From IMG/VR virus record IMGVR_UViG_3300019927_000016, positions 1 through 29,489 of that record: a stretch of DNA of 29,489 bases; one strand, given 5' to 3'. Position numbers and translations under genes: made by a program. This stretch comes from a virus. This document shows positions 4,326 through 21,339 of the stretch, piece by piece (within the stretch, counting starts at the first letter, position 1; each line of letters begins with the position of its first letter). A model generated the notes under the pieces. The model was not told the origin of the DNA. It was given only the letters and a program-made list of their open reading frames with translations, and did no database searches.

Positions 4326-5749
4326 TGGAAGAAGATTACACTCCTTCGCTGTACGACATATCTCAGCTCAGTCGTGACTTCGGCCTCATTGGAGAGCGAG
4401 ACACACACCTCGTTGTGTTTCTCTCGTTCTTGAAAGGAGGATTCGTAGCCATGACCGGACTTTCTCGTGGTGGGAAGGACTTCGTGACGGACGCGGCGAA
4501 CTATTGTATGCCCGACGACGTGGTATTCAAGGTTCCTACGTCCACCTCGAAGACCGCCCTCTACGAGAGTGAATACGAGATGAACTCTGCTCGGGTCCAC
4601 CGATACCCCGACATTGCGACTCTCGAAGACAAGAGCCACCTTGAAGAGATAATGAAAGCCCACGGTGAGGGCAACACTATCACCCACACACGAACGACTG
4701 GTGGTGGGGGTAACAAAGAGAGTATGACTCTCACCCCACCCGATTGTTTCGTGATGTTCGTTGCATCCGACAACGAGCAGGTGGACTTGAACGATTACCC
4801 GGAGCTTCGGAACCGGGCATTGGTGGTGAGCATTGACTCATCGAAGGAGTTGACCGAACGAGTTAACACGGCTCAGGCGCGGCGAATGTCGGGCTACTAT
4901 GAGCCAAACTACACGGACGAAGAGCGAGACATTATTCGGGAGTACGTCGGTGAGATTCCCGTCGAGATGTACGCCAGCGACCGTGGACCGAGTGGGGCGA
5001 CGTTCGAGATACCCGGACTCGCGCTGGACAATCAGAACCCACTCCCCCAACACTTCACCGAAGCACGGGACGACTTCCCCCGGCTGATGAAGTTTGTTCG
5101 GGCGATTACGATGTTCCATTACGAGAACCGCATGGAGGTAGCTCTTGAAGACCGAAATGAAAGCGTCTCTCTTCTCGTTACACCGAGTGACGTGTGGTAT
5201 GGGATGCGTATTTTCGGTGAAGAAATGGTTCTCTCGGCGTTGAATCTCCGAGACGAAGACTTCGCCATGCTCAATCTGATTCGGGATTCCGATAACGGAA
5301 TGTCGAAGGCTGAGGTGCAGATGGATATGCGTGACGAAGGGTGGAACATCACCAACCGAGACGTGACTTCTGCGTTGGGCAATATGCTCACGAAGGGCTA
5401 CGTCCGAAAGGACCAGTCTCAGAACCCAATCCTGTGGGACTCGACGCCGTTCGCTACGAACGCAAGTCGTGAAGTTCGCATGGATTGGGAAGAGTTGGTT
5501 GAAGACACCAAGCAGACTGCTAAAGACAACCTTCCGGGTGAGGTCGCTGATGAATACATTGAACGGTTCTGTGAGGGTGACGGGCTGTTCGTTACCCATC
5601 CGTTCACGGGTGAGAAACTGAACATCACGAAACAGAATCTTCTCGAAGAAACTGTTGAAGAACAGGAGGAGAAAGAAGAGGAAGAAGTGTTCTCTGAAGA
5701 CCTCTATGAAGGCTCTTCGGGTGATGAGAGTCAGGGGACGCTTGGATGA
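4325..5749 (+). CDS. AAA+ ATPase, probable replicative helicase (MCM-like)
   Basis: 474 aa. A Walker A-like loop MTGLSRGGKDF lies at residues 43-53. The following region (DIATLEDKSHLEEIMKAHGE) resembles the Walker B/helix region of MCM helicases, though the canonical DE pair is altered. LRNRALVVSID is a likely arginine-finger strand. A winged-helix region follows (around residues 315-375), as at the C-terminus of MCM proteins, and an acidic disordered tail ends the chain. The neighbours are an archaeo-eukaryotic primase and an Mre11-like nuclease, which supports a replication role. It could also be a different AAA+ loader. It probably unwinds DNA at the viral fork. Confidence 0.75.
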   Translation: MEEDYTPSLYDISQLSRDFGLIGERDTHLVVFLSFLKGGFVAMTGLSRGGKDFVTDAANYCMPDDVVFKVPTSTSKTALYESEYEMNSARVHRYPDIATLEDKSHLEEIMKAHGEGNTITHTRTTGGGGNKESMTLTPPDCFVMFVASDNEQVDLNDYPELRNRALVVSIDSSKELTERVNTAQARRMSGYYEPNYTDEERDIIREYVGEIPVEMYASDRGPSGATFEIPGLALDNQNPLPQHFTEARDDFPRLMKFVRAITMFHYENRMEVALEDRNESVSLLVTPSDVWYGMRIFGEEMVLSALNLRDEDFAMLNLIRDSDNGMSKAEVQMDMRDEGWNITNRDVTSALGNMLTKGYVRKDQSQNPILWDSTPFATNASREVRMDWEELVEDTKQTAKDNLPGEVADEYIERFCEGDGLFVTHPFTGEKLNITKQNLLEETVEEQEEKEEEEVFSEDLYEGSSGDESQGTLG

Positions 5750-12911: not shown

Positions 12912-12940
12912 TGCATTGAGTGGCGGCAGAGAGGTTCCTG

Positions 12941-14965
12941 ATGAAAGAGATATACGTAACTGATACTGAATGTACGATGGAGAATGGTCGTCCAGAGATT
13001 CACCTCTATGGACGAACTGAGACGGAGCAAGCAGAACACATCGCGGTTGAGGGATTCAAGCCGTACTTCTACGTTCGGCCCGAAGAGGCAGATGAAATTT
13101 CTGCCTTCGACCACGATGCAATTGACCACTACGAAGAGACGGATTTCGTTGACGTAATCGAGCAGAAACCTCTCACCAAGGTCGTAGTCAACAATCCGTA
13201 TGAGATGAATGGCGTCGTTGAACTGTTCGAGGAAACATTCGACGCTGACATTGACCCGGAGAATCGGTTCCGAATTGACCATGACGTGAAGACTGGTGTT
13301 CGTGTTCCGGGCGACCGTGTTGACGTGAGTGAGGTAGAGCCGATTGAGATGGAAGCTCCCCCTCGCGTCATGACGTTTGACATTGAGACTGACGACCGTG
13401 GCGAAGGGTTCCCCGACTATGGAGAAGAGCGAATACTTTCTATAGTCGCACACGATTCATACACTGATGAATATGTAGGATTCATCGACATGGAGGGGCA
13501 GTCTCTTGGCGACCGATTCCCCGACGCCGACCTCAATGCAGTCGAACACCCGAGCGACCTTGGACTCGACACCCTCGATAAGCTCAATTTTGAGCCGGAC
13601 GAAATGCGGATGCTGATTTCGTTCTACTCGTGGGTGAATGACAAGGATTTCGACCTACTGGCGGGTTGGAACAGCAATGGGTTCGACACTCCATTCGTGA
13701 TTGAGCGGGCCTCAGAAGTTGGCTCGAACGCTGGTCGAATGGCCCGTGGCGGTTCTGCTGGTCTGACGTGGCGTGACGACCCCTACGTTAACGGTCGGTC
13801 GTGTTTCGACTTGATGGGTGGGTGGAAGGACACGAAATTCACGAAAGTCTCTGGTTCCCTCGATGAAGCGGCCTCGATGGAACTGGACGACGTGAAGATT
13901 GACCACCAAGAGAAGGGCTTCTACGAATTGTACGAGGATAACACGAAGAAATTCCTCAACTACAACACGAAAGACGTGGCCCTCACAGTTGGTATCAACG
14001 AAGCCGCGAACGTCCTCGGCTTCAAGACCGCGCTTCGGAACACAATCGGCCTCGACTACGAGGATACCAACAGCAACAAGGACTTCATCACGATGATGGT
14101 CCGACGTAAACTGCATCGTGAGAAGCTTGCTGGTCCGACTGCCGACCCGCCTGACGACGCTGGAAGTTACGACGGCGCGTTTGTCTTCCCGGCGTTCAAC
14201 GGACTGAAAGAGAACATCGTCGGCATTGACTTGTCGTCGCTCTATCCGAACGCCCTCTGGATGCTCAATGCATCCCCCGATACGAAGTTGGGGAAGATTG
14301 GGCGCGATTTCAAGGAGGAATGGGTAGAGCGGATTCGTGCTGAAGGCTACGAAGTGTCCGTCTCTTCCAACGGCGTCGTATTCTGTCTCGAAGAAGATGG
14401 AATCTTCCGAGAACTGGTTGACGAAGCTCTCAAGCTGAAAGAACACGCTGGAGAGATGATGACTGACAGTTCTCTCAGCCCCGAAGAGCGTGAAGAATGG
14501 GCTGAAGAATATGCTGTCAGGAAAACTATAGTTAACTCTATCTACGGCGTTCTTGGGTGGGTCAAATTCTTCCTCTACGACAAGGACATTGCGTCGGCAA
14601 TTACGCTCACCTCTCAAGAAATCATCAAAACGACAGCGAGTCACGTTGATGAAAACACGGAAGCGAGCGTTGCTTACGGAGACACAGACTCAAACTACAT
14701 TGAGTTTGATAGTTCCCTGAGCCAACGTGAATGTCTTGAGAAAGCAGAGGGGATTTGCGCTGAGTTGAACAACGAAGTGTACCCTCGGATTGCTGAGAAG
14801 TATGGGATGCCCACTCAAATTGAAGGCATTGAGTGGCCGACGCGAATCGAGATTGAGCTTGAGATGTATTGTAGCGAGTTCTTCATGAGTGGACAAAAGA
14901 AATTTTATAGCTACAATTGCACTTGGGAGGAGGGGATGGAGTATGACGAAGTAATAGTAACGTAA
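12941..14965 (+). CDS. polB: Family-B DNA polymerase, N-terminal part (exonuclease, palm, fingers)
   Basis: 674 aa from ATG 12941, which has a GAGGT ribosome site (a GTG 21 bases upstream is less likely). The proofreading exonuclease is intact: FDIETDD (D near 147), GWNSNGFDTPF (near 244) and YNTKDV (near 341). The polymerase motifs are all present: A, GIDLSSLYPNAL (near 429); B, KTIVNSIYG (near 528); C, YGDTDS (near 579). It continues to the KKRY-like motif QKKFYSYNCTWEEGMEYDE and then stops after four more residues, exactly where the thumb should begin. The thumb is encoded separately at 15748, after an inserted HNH gene. The gene is a split polymerase, not a simple truncation. Probable viral replicase. 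Confidence 0.93.
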   Translation: MKEIYVTDTECTMENGRPEIHLYGRTETEQAEHIAVEGFKPYFYVRPEEADEISAFDHDAIDHYEETDFVDVIEQKPLTKVVVNNPYEMNGVVELFEETFDADIDPENRFRIDHDVKTGVRVPGDRVDVSEVEPIEMEAPPRVMTFDIETDDRGEGFPDYGEERILSIVAHDSYTDEYVGFIDMEGQSLGDRFPDADLNAVEHPSDLGLDTLDKLNFEPDEMRMLISFYSWVNDKDFDLLAGWNSNGFDTPFVIERASEVGSNAGRMARGGSAGLTWRDDPYVNGRSCFDLMGGWKDTKFTKVSGSLDEAASMELDDVKIDHQEKGFYELYEDNTKKFLNYNTKDVALTVGINEAANVLGFKTALRNTIGLDYEDTNSNKDFITMMVRRKLHREKLAGPTADPPDDAGSYDGAFVFPAFNGLKENIVGIDLSSLYPNALWMLNASPDTKLGKIGRDFKEEWVERIRAEGYEVSVSSNGVVFCLEEDGIFRELVDEALKLKEHAGEMMTDSSLSPEEREEWAEEYAVRKTIVNSIYGVLGWVKFFLYDKDIASAITLTSQEIIKTTASHVDENTEASVAYGDTDSNYIEFDSSLSQRECLEKAEGICAELNNEVYPRIAEKYGMPTQIEGIEWPTRIEIELEMYCSEFFMSGQKKFYSYNCTWEEGMEYDEVIVT

Positions 14966-14968
14966 TGG

Positions 14969-15011
14969 AAAGGGTACATAAACCCTTTACCACTAATAGT
15001 AGTGAAGGGTT
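14969..15011 (+). promoter_or_regulatory. Competing hairpins before the HNH gene inside split polB
   Basis: AAAGGGT (14969-14975) pairs with ACCCTTT (14982-14988) over a 6-nt loop. AAGGGT recurs at 15005-15010, so ACCCTT could instead pair downstream, close to the ATG at 15014. CACTA-ATAG-TAGTG forms a further hairpin between them. The two pairings exclude each other, a layout seen in translational switches. It may hold down expression of the endonuclease in the polymerase transcript. Confidence 0.4.
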
Positions 15012-15013
15012 CT

Positions 15014-15745
15014 ATGTCTGAAAACTCTCCGTGGAGAGATGAAAGTCTGCTTCGGGATGCATATCTTGAGTACGGTTCTCAGAAGAAAGTTGCTGAAGAA
15101 TTTGACTGTTCAAAAGCTACTATTGGGAATTGGATGAAAAATCACGGAATTGAAGTTCGGAAAAATCACCCGTCATGTCCCCTATACCATGAAAATAAAC
15201 TCCGCTCAATGTATCGAGAGTCTGGAAGTGTTGAGCGAGTCCGAAAGCGGTTGAATTGTTCTCCAAATATCTTGAAAAAATGGATGGACTATCACGGCAT
15301 TGAGCGAGATTGGAAACACAAAGACCGAGGTGAAATGACCAATGCCGAGTGTGAACAGTGTGGGGGTGTTGATGTTGTCTATAAATCAATTCGAGAACAG
15401 TTTGACAAATGGTTCTGTTCCCGAGATTGCATGGGAAATTGGCAGAGTGAGAATCAGGTAGCCGAAAACCACCCAAGCTGGAAAGGTGGCTATCAAGGCT
15501 ACGGGCAGGAGTGGTACTATGTTCGGAAAGACTGCCGAGAACGTGATGGAAATACTTGTCAGAAGTGTGGAGACAAAGATAATGAGCGGATTCCTGACGT
15601 TCACCACATAGAGCCTGTACGTTCCTTCGATGAACCCGACGAAGCTCATAACTTAGATAACTTAGTCCAGTTGTGCCGGACGTGTCACAATAAAATCGAG
15701 AAGTACGAACCAGAAAAACAGCGCGAAATTCTGAACTTTAACTGA
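15014..15745 (+). CDS. HNH homing endonuclease inserted between polymerase halves
   Basis: 243 aa. Two similar helix-turn-helix units stand in tandem near the N-terminus (KKVAEEFDCSKATIGNWMKN and VERVRKRLNCSPNILKKWMD), each ending in a HGIE-type turn. A CxxC pair (CEQCGG) and FCSRDC form a zinc site. The nuclease domain has RDGNTCQKCG, DVHHIEPVRSF, HNLDNLVQLCRTCHNKI: the full HNH motif with two zinc CxxC pairs. The HTH style matches the smaller HNH protein at 3903, suggesting related invaders. It lies in the same direction inside the polymerase gene, and its stop is two bases before the polymerase C-terminal gene. Confidence 0.92.
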   Translation: MSENSPWRDESLLRDAYLEYGSQKKVAEEFDCSKATIGNWMKNHGIEVRKNHPSCPLYHENKLRSMYRESGSVERVRKRLNCSPNILKKWMDYHGIERDWKHKDRGEMTNAECEQCGGVDVVYKSIREQFDKWFCSRDCMGNWQSENQVAENHPSWKGGYQGYGQEWYYVRKDCRERDGNTCQKCGDKDNERIPDVHHIEPVRSFDEPDEAHNLDNLVQLCRTCHNKIEKYEPEKQREILNFN

Positions 15746-15747
15746 CA

Positions 15748-16353
15748 ATGGCAGAAACAAAGAAAATCGAAGATGTGAGCGACAGCGATACAGTTGGGAA
15801 AATAAAAATAAGCGGCTACCCTTGCGTGAAAGCGAACACCGCCGAATTGACAAAGCAGGTACAGCGGGATTGCCTCGAAGCAATCGTCCGTGGTGAAGAT
15901 TCCGATGAGATTCGGAAGATAATCCGCAACGGTGCAACTCTTATCGACCCCGCCGACCCGGACTTTGACTTGATTGGTATTCCCGGCGGTCTTGGAAAGG
16001 AGATTACCGATTACAGTTGGACGAATGGAACGCCGAAAGGAGCGTCCCCTCGGGCGGCTTACTACGGAAATCTATTCGTTCCGAAGGTCAACTTCGGCAA
16101 GGGTAACACGGTCAAGCGGGTCTATCTGACCGGCGTGAACAAGGAGAAGAACGGTCGGATGTACGAAATGGACGTGATTGGGTACGAACGCGGTGCCCAA
16201 CTCGATGATTTCGATGGCGACCTCGATGTTGACGTTCCCCGGATGCAGGATACCCTTATCCGAAATCCGATGGAAGATATTCTCGATGCGATTGACGTTG
16301 ACATTGACGCGGCGATGAGTGGTCAACAGCAGACCGGACTGGCCGCGTTTTGA
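15748..16353 (+). CDS. polB: Family-B DNA polymerase, C-terminal thumb part
   Basis: 201 aa. After about 16 new residues it continues where the other half ends: VGKIKISGYPCVKANTAEL and TKQVQRDCLEAI match the start of the PolB thumb (usually KG.E..R.D....t+.vQ+.vl+.il). IGIPGGLGKEITDY and the later NGTPKGASPRAAYYGNLF are the following thumb signatures. The C-terminal end QTGLAAF resembles a PCNA-binding (PIP) box. The two halves must assemble as separate chains unless the transcript is spliced. The HNH gene between them explains the split. Confidence 0.85.
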   Translation: MAETKKIEDVSDSDTVGKIKISGYPCVKANTAELTKQVQRDCLEAIVRGEDSDEIRKIIRNGATLIDPADPDFDLIGIPGGLGKEITDYSWTNGTPKGASPRAAYYGNLFVPKVNFGKGNTVKRVYLTGVNKEKNGRMYEMDVIGYERGAQLDDFDGDLDVDVPRMQDTLIRNPMEDILDAIDVDIDAAMSGQQQTGLAAF

Positions 16354-19813: not shown

Positions 19814-19972
19814 ATGAGTAGTACACCAGAAGTCAGAGAGAATTGTTCGTATAGTGGGTATAACAAGCAGAATGGGATTTCTTGCACCAATGACGATTTG
19901 TGTGCAAATTGTTGGATGGACCGAGACGTTGAGACTCACCGAGAATTGTACGAGGCGATGGGCGACCTATGA
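19814..19972 (+). CDS. Small cysteine protein, 52 aa
   Basis: I choose ATG 19814; a TTG 48 bases upstream would add a hydrophobic leader (LLLCCIIAVLLI), possible as a signal or membrane anchor but lacking ATG. Cysteines lie in ENCSYSG, SCTND and LCANCW, suggesting a zinc site. The stop overlaps rtcB (ATGA), so the two are co-expressed. Function unknown. Confidence 0.6.
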   Translation: MSSTPEVRENCSYSGYNKQNGISCTNDDLCANCWMDRDVETHRELYEAMGDL

Positions 19973-21339
19973 TTATCAAAGGAGAACACACGACGGCTGA
20001 CGTAAAGCTCCCTCAGAGTGAGATTGAAGATGGACTCATTGAGGAAATGCAGGAGCAGGTGGATAATGAGGCGTTCCAGAATCCCATCAAATATATGCCG
20101 GACTGTCATGGCGGCCTCGGTCCCCATGCTATCGTCGGCTTCTCGATGGGTCTTGGCGACCGAATAATCCCCAACTCTGTCGGTGGTGACATTGGGTGTG
20201 GAATGATGGCGGCGAAAGTTATTGGAAGTAAGGTTGACTTTGACGACATTGACGACCTTCGCCGCGTCAATGAAGACGTTCGTGACCGCGTTCCGATGGG
20301 GACTGGCCGAGTGAATGACCGTTCGGACGAGGACTTTTCGGAACTATACTCGTGGTGGTGTGCGAATCTCAGCCTCGATAAGCTTCATAAATATCTGACT
20401 GACAGTCAGCTTGGTGAGCGTCGTTTCGAGGACGAACGATTCGACATAGAGTATTTCGAGGATTTGTGCGAACGAGTAGGAATCTCTGAGAGTTACGCTA
20501 AAGATTCTCTTGGAAGTCTCGGCGGTGGAAATCACTTCATTGAGGTGGCTGAGGGTGAAGAAGACGGGTCGCTTTGGATTGTCGTTCACTCCGGTTCTCG
20601 AAATCTTGGTCAGCGGGTGTGTAGCTATCACCAAGAAAACGCCACGTTCGAGCGAGAGAATGAAATCGCGTGGGGAGAGATGCGTGACGAAATCAAACGG
20701 TACGTCATGTCCGATGGAAGCCCCGATTGGGAGAAAATCAAAGAGCAATTCGAGGGTGAGAAAATCGCTGAAATTGGCGATGAGATTGATTCTCACACGT
20801 CTGATTCCAACCGGAACACCAAGCTTGATTATCTGGAGGGGCCGGAGATGTACGATTATCTCAAGGACATGGTGTTTGCTCAGGAGTACGCATCTGACAA
20901 TCGCCTTTTCATGGTTGATGAGGTCGCCACCGCCCTCGGTGGGGAAGTTTCTGAGATAATCAATTCACCCCACAACTACGTGGATTTCCGGTCGGGAACG
21001 ATTCACAAGGGTTCCACCCGTGCCGCTTCTGGAGAGCGGTTCGTCATTCCGATGAACATGGAAGATGGGACGTTGTTGTGTCGTGGAAAGGGCAACCCTG
21101 AATGGAATCAGTCGGCCCCACACGGTGCTGGTCGGCTTGGTTCTCGGGGATGGGCACACGAACAATTCGACGGCGACGAGGTTCGCAAGCGGATGTACGA
21201 CGGTGGGACGTATTCAGCGAACGTCCCCACGGATGAAGTGCCGGAGGCCTACAAAGACACCGCGCTCATCGAGGAACAAATCAAGCCGACCGCCAAGGTC
21301 GTTGACCGGCTTGTTCCCGTGATGAATTTCAAAGCATGA
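19969..21339 (+). CDS. rtcB: RNA ligase RtcB (3'-phosphate/5'-OH)
   Basis: 456 aa, near the usual 400-480. All key motifs are visible: GGDIGCGM (Mn-binding Asp and Cys), SLGGGNHFIEV, VVHSGSRNLG, SPHNYVDF, the GTP-site IHKGSTRA, and SAPHGAGRLGSR with the His that carries the guanylate. RtcB joins RNA ends left by tRNA splicing endonuclease and by RNA-damaging nucleases. Its promoter belongs to the same class as the tRNA clusters, which supports a tRNA-linked role in infection. The downstream 57-aa gene overlaps its stop. Confidence 0.95.
   Translation: MIIKGEHTTADVKLPQSEIEDGLIEEMQEQVDNEAFQNPIKYMPDCHGGLGPHAIVGFSMGLGDRIIPNSVGGDIGCGMMAAKVIGSKVDFDDIDDLRRVNEDVRDRVPMGTGRVNDRSDEDFSELYSWWCANLSLDKLHKYLTDSQLGERRFEDERFDIEYFEDLCERVGISESYAKDSLGSLGGGNHFIEVAEGEEDGSLWIVVHSGSRNLGQRVCSYHQENATFERENEIAWGEMRDEIKRYVMSDGSPDWEKIKEQFEGEKIAEIGDEIDSHTSDSNRNTKLDYLEGPEMYDYLKDMVFAQEYASDNRLFMVDEVATALGGEVSEIINSPHNYVDFRSGTIHKGSTRAASGERFVIPMNMEDGTLLCRGKGNPEWNQSAPHGAGRLGSRGWAHEQFDGDEVRKRMYDGGTYSANVPTDEVPEAYKDTALIEEQIKPTAKVVDRLVPVMNFKA

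Follow-up and report, generated by a model that had tools for sequence, protein, structure and literature searches.

How can a viral DNA polymerase be encoded in two genes with an endonuclease gene between them, and how would such an enzyme work? The question is raised by an IMG/VR virus contig (IMGVR_UViG_3300019927_000016), analysed here over its whole stretch of 29,489 nucleotides (the window), which shows synteny with HF2-type haloarchaeal tailed viruses. The gene order polB, small genes, thyX and, later, rtcB is identical in the window, HF2 and VOLN27B; the RtcB-like RNA ligase gene of the window lies at 19969-21339. An earlier note on this DNA had described a polymerase split by an HNH gene, with trans-assembly or RNA splicing as the ways to restore function. 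The open reading frame calls agree with it on the three genes, on their positions and on their single direction, with the HNH gene between the polymerase genes. As judged from the sequences compared here, polB was most probably split by a free-standing HTH-HNH endonuclease gene, and the two separately translated parts would assemble non-covalently into an active polymerase. The sequences show the layout of the locus, the homology of the parts, the patchy presence of the insertion against intact relatives, endonucleases that share the site, selection in split relatives, and splits free of any endonuclease; for the assembly of the parts, the selection in split relatives is indirect support.

Two polymerase genes and the gene between them

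The upstream gene (N-part; 12941-14965, plus strand, 674 aa) starts with ATG in a frame that is open from a GTG at 12920, and comprises the exonuclease, palm and fingers up to its end in WEEGMEYDEVIVT and a stop codon. It matches Pfam DNA_pol_B and DNA_pol_B_exo1, and PHROGs phrog_262 over positions 2-671. The exonuclease motifs and motifs A, B and C claimed for it earlier are indeed all intact: Exo I-III, motif A (DLSSLYPN), motif B (KTIVNSIYG), motif C (YGDTDS), and also KKFY. The downstream gene (C-part; 15748-16353, plus strand, 201 aa) encodes a thumb domain with the PIP-like tail QTGLAAF and matches phrog_262 over positions 666-844. Together, the two parts have full-length homology to the phrog_262 family B polymerase of the haloarchaeal tailed-virus type. 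The comparison with an intact halovirus enzyme, which the earlier note had proposed, places the joint at about residues 665-668: the 854-aa PolB of HF2, encoded by one gene, aligns to the N-part with residues 1-668 (63% identity) and to the C-part with residues 665-853 (69% identity). In the structural model of the C-part, pLDDT is low at residues 1-29 and the tail also lies outside the predicted fold, while the best structural matches of the folded remainder are archaeal PolB and RB69 gp43; apart from these two stretches, the C-part is thus predicted to fold by itself. The C-terminal Q..L..F is kept in nearly all PolB relatives. The HF2 alignment, phrog_262 and the structural matches agree in identifying the product starting at 15748 as a genuine PolB thumb that carries a PIP-like tail, and not as a protein unrelated to PolB; no continuous reading frame through both parts exists in the window sequence.

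The middle gene (15017-15745, plus strand, 242 aa; frame 15002/15017-15745) lies in the frame of the N-part with a TAA between them, the C-part being in another frame, and the insert between the polymerase parts holds only about 53 non-coding bases. Its product matches HNH (PF01844) above the Pfam cut-off and consists of two N-terminal HTH-like repeats and a C-terminal HNH domain with conserved Cys pairs and the H/H/N/H residues; H196, H197, N215, H224 and the Cys pairs are invariant in the three relatives. The gene has a G+C content of 44% against 51-52% in the flanking polymerase parts, and a GC3 of 0.43 against about 0.60. An intercistronic RNA hairpin (14966-15025, plus strand; -19.2 kcal/mol, z -2.98) pairs the HNH start codon, the AUG being held in its stem. 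According to this predicted structure, the hairpin may exert translational control and keep endonuclease expression from polB transcripts low. The segments AAAGGGT, ACCCTTT and GAAGGGT of this region could also pair in alternative ways.

The break had been placed exactly at the KKRY-like region, a position that has to be corrected: it lies 17-20 residues beyond KKFY, in the turn of the next beta-hairpin. Alignment to solved structures maps it between D598 and G601 of KOD, in the turn that follows the KKKY strand, and the model (mean pLDDT 88) of L011, a relative with a continuous gene, has strands 657-664 and 679-683 on either side of the break loop. At both sides of the break the genes have acquired new ends. 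The new tail of the N-part (14950-14965, boundary approximate, plus strand) reads about EVIVT before the stop codon and resembles the EVLVE before the stop of other split viral genes; where the split N-parts end, intact viral polB genes continue as (E)IKDGKGK. The C-part has a new start with an extension of about 16 residues (15748-15795, plus strand), MAETKKIEDVSDSDTV, and the C-parts of the other split viral genes start similarly with MSQTMKITEAExRDDV (shuffle p 0.002-0.004; 17-26 of 39,904 random ATG starts score equally well). Continuous genes lack both the new C-part start and the new N-part tail. The inserted cassette therefore seems to bring the stop and start codons with it, and this accounts for two pieces that are each a proper gene. 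A DNA pattern built for the common C-part start was too unspecific and found PolB only at loci already known.

The same joint in other viruses and in haloarchaeal chromosomes

The polB gene is continuous in HF2, in VOLN27B and in the nearest relatives, L011 and L012 (76-82% identical). Matches to the thumb were obtained in 51 annotated phage records, and all those listed fall within genes whose annotation is DNA polymerase; at the DNA level, the matches run across the join with no insert. In the PolB tree, the window groups with the intact L011 and L016 (the latter the same contig as L012) with full support, and its branch of 0.14 compares with 0.099 and 0.15 for these sisters; being no longer than theirs, it gives no sign of decay in the split protein. 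Another contig, L027, ends (at 5669) exactly at the split site, where the 99.8%-identical L024 is continuous; an insertion polymorphism would fit, but a contig end proves nothing.

A scan of IMG/VR PolB relatives found at least three other virus contigs (L043, L046 and L067) split at the same hairpin. Since they come from other metagenomes and have the identical break, chance or an assembly artefact is unlikely. L043 and L067 have HNH genes exactly at the break, 41-43% identical to that of the window over about 240 residues, while L046 has no endonuclease gene and its two overlapping PolB parts share the bases ATGA. Relatives thus differ in whether an insertion occupies this site, and the claim that an HNH gene split polB is strengthened by the intact nearest relatives, by the HNH homologues that two other viruses have at this point and by the intact state of the catalytic and thumb parts. 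An HNH profile scan of viral contigs retrieved only the relatives in L043 and L067, and a single-sequence scan none. The endonuclease of L043 (L043:5665-6516) has a third N-terminal HTH-like repeat, so that the number of repeats varies within the family. Programmed frameshifting was considered as a means of joining the parts of L046 and rejected, as its junction GGTAGAATGA, read from the sequence, has no slippery heptamer.

Both PolB parts are under purifying selection in these split relatives: between L043 and L046, the N-part has a dN/dS of 0.074 and the C-part one of 0.083. Because the junction is common to both, most of their divergence should, by parsimony, postdate the split. L043, L046 and L067 form one clade, and the window stands outside it. 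A single clade of all four split viral genes is rejected on the PolB tree (AU p 7e-7), although allele replacement could mimic two origins, and an ancient split followed by repeated replacement by intact alleles is possible. The HNH proteins of the window and L067 are 43% identical and their PolB parts 44%; as the endonucleases are as diverged as the polymerases, no recent transfer between the window and the other group is claimed. The insertion in the window itself could be recent, selection since the split being seen in L043/L046 and in the chromosomal cases.

Several further insertions and neighbours were noted in viral polB genes. HTH and/or HNH genes lie right after the stop codon of continuous polB in L017 (7565-7993), L019 (3432-3860), L045 (8597-9166) and L047 (8921-9640). 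The polB of HCTV-16 (L009) has HNH genes on both sides, at 1957-2253 and 4995-5579, the downstream one overlapping the polB end. From the endonuclease-like genes found behind continuous polB in other haloviruses, including HJTV-2, the group seems to prefer the neighbourhood of polB. In-frame intein-like insertions of about 1 kb occur in the motif B/C region of viral PolB in L045, L047, L048, L049, L006 and L238, and L046 combines such an insertion with the thumb split. A virus-type PolB at L054:5001-8497 has an apparent frameshift near residue 188, from a sequencing error or a real break, together with an intein-like insertion.

In the chromosomes of the hosts, a thumb profile search across 391 haloarchaeal genomes, complemented by a family-level search, gave listed matches that were mostly continuous cellular PolB, along with two thumbs whose frames measure just 208 aa; the family-level search added a third split thumb. 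In at least three chromosomes (G370, G385 and G406), the break in PolB falls in the hairpin that is split in the viruses. The N-part of G385 and G406 ends directly behind KKRYAG.KIW and is followed by a NUMOD3-type endonuclease gene and then by the C-part; the two endonucleases are 64% identical and belong to a family different from that of the viral HNH proteins. In G370, about 80 bp separate the parts, and the reading NQRQKFLEVLND matches the C-terminus of the NUMOD3-type endonuclease, KRSELLEVLNDE. With only this 3' remnant in the gap, the endonuclease of G370 was lost and the split kept. Among the three split chromosomal genes, dN/dS of the C-part is 0.10-0.24, and in G370 and G385 no other PolB hit was obtained, within the limits of fragmented assemblies. 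The chromosomes repeat the viral pattern with another endonuclease family, down to the stage at which the endonuclease has gone. Haloarchaeal chromosomes also contain isolated remnants of virus-type polB that consist of the thumb alone, at L212:5001-5462 (Halobium salinum) and in G018 and G123, and a scan of the genome collection with the thumb profile returned one Halobium remnant and several distant relatives.

Origin of the split and recovery of function

The most probable course of events can be outlined as follows. A free-standing HTH-HNH gene would have invaded a single polB at the KKxY beta-hairpin between palm and thumb, within its turn. The cassette would give the upstream part a stop codon and the downstream part a start codon and a short extension, so that one gene becomes two, each complete, with the endonuclease gene between them. 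Separate translation would then yield a catalytic and a thumb protein, which would associate non-covalently to form the active polymerase. As to the mobile gene, we infer that its product cleaves uninterrupted alleles at this site and that the gene is copied in by recombination. If the two-piece enzyme works, the split could outlive the endonuclease.

An inverse order of events is unlikely, although it retains real weight: polB may have been split first by an ATGA-type gene fission, the endonuclease invading the intercistronic gap later. The same order has been proposed as possible for Aeromonas phage 25 versus 44RR (PMC2988022), L046 is split without an endonuclease, and HTH-HNH genes adjoin the intact polB 3' end in L017, L019 and L045. 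Nonetheless, L046 sits inside a clade whose other two members have the endonuclease, which makes loss the simpler assumption; G370 keeps a 3' endonuclease remnant, and no split gene free of an endonuclease and of its traces was found outside these clades. The order in which the endonuclease came first is therefore favoured.

It is improbable that the insertion inactivated polB, leaving a virus that is defective or relies on the host polymerase while the halves decay. The window is a single incomplete contig, and an insertion in it may be of any age. The frames, however, are open and all motifs intact, the PolB tree reveals no branch acceleration, purifying selection on both parts is strong in split relatives, and in two genomes the split chromosomal PolB is the only one found.

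RNA splicing, with the HNH gene inside a group I or group II intron or an archaeal BHB intron and the viral RtcB as ligase, is more improbable still. The virus does encode an RtcB-like RNA ligase and introns often carry HNH genes, but HF2 and VOLN27B also have RtcB and yet an intact polB. No Rfam intron family was found in the window at the gathering cut-off or at E up to 10, and the BHB scan gave two candidates against a control-region mean of 6.6, none of them both complete and in frame. The insert is almost all coding, and the 4-base overlap of the L046 parts leaves no room for an intron. The splicing suggested in the earlier note thus finds no credible intron, and non-covalent assembly is favoured as the route to function. 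Protein splicing by a cis or split intein deserves the least credence of all: inteins are common in haloarchaeal PolB (PMC4071816) and intein-like insertions are present in frame in the related L045, L047, L048 and L049, but the three window proteins contain no intein domain (Pfam), the foreign tails of about 5 and 16 residues are far below the size of split-intein parts, the PolB parts are in different frames with a TAA after the N-part, and no terminal Cys/Ser or His-Asn is present at the new ends, in agreement with what had been remarked earlier about the halves.

With non-covalent assembly as the preferred reading, the main interest of these loci is the recurrence of the split at one joint and its persistence after endonuclease loss, as in L046 and G370. 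The two-piece polymerases appear functional and persistent. This suggests that viruses and host chromosomes alike can have a replicative polymerase divided at one joint into a catalytic and a thumb polypeptide, and that the two polypeptides continue to be under purifying selection where the mobile gene is gone. It would also offer a concrete path from single-chain to multi-subunit enzymes, driven by selfish genes, and designers of split or inducible DNA polymerases could take the natural break point as a guide. In a wider and more tentative view, to which we give somewhat less than an even chance, the KKxY palm-thumb hairpin would be a general breaking point of archaeal PolB that unrelated endonucleases (HTH-HNH in viruses, NUMOD3-type in haloarchaeal chromosomes) invade repeatedly before decaying and leaving stable two-subunit polymerases. 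The two-gene PolB of Methanobacteriales may then be such a scar and not the result of faulty intein excision, which provides a rival origin for that enzyme.

Comparison with known split enzymes

Archaeal family B polymerases made of two polypeptides have been found elsewhere. Nanoarchaeum equitans also encodes PolB in two genes, but there a split intein joins the parts, unlike in the window, where no intein is present. The PolB3 of Methanobacteriales is likewise an archaeal family B polymerase in two polypeptides. Both of its parts were reportedly needed for activity in the work of Kelman et al. in 1999. The origin of its two genes has been attributed to erratic intein excision (PMC4104785, PMC7776575) and, in contrast to the window, no endonuclease is described in it (PMC7776575, PMC4104785).

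Closer parallels come from bacterial viruses. The nrdA gene of Aeh1 is split by the HNH gene mobE into two working polypeptides (PMC2988022). As in the window, a free-standing HNH gene splits an essential enzyme gene and an RNA structure covers the start region of the endonuclease, although the enzyme is a ribonucleotide reductase and not a polymerase. RNA structure that limits endonuclease expression has been described for mobE in Aeh1 and, in part, for seg43(25) of Aeromonas phage 25 (PMC2988022). In the latter phage, gene 43 consists of two genes, 43A and 43B, with the GIY-YIG endonuclease gene seg43(25) between them, and their products co-purify and have polymerase activity (PMC2988022). 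The likeness to the window extends to the two-gene family B polymerase, the free-standing endonuclease between the genes and the RNA hairpin just before the endonuclease; in the window, as in Aeh1 nrdA and phage 25 gene 43, complementary parts with their own stop and start flank an endonuclease gene of the same direction. Phage 25 differs in being a bacterial phage, in its GIY-YIG instead of HNH endonuclease, in the group I intron held by 43B, and in the place of the break, which, from the locus sequence, separates motif A from motif B within the fingers instead of falling in the palm-thumb hairpin. No earlier description of the present polB split in haloviruses or haloarchaea was found in the open-licence literature. 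A polymerase split by a free-standing endonuclease is already known, and the split described here differs from it in its place and in its endonuclease.
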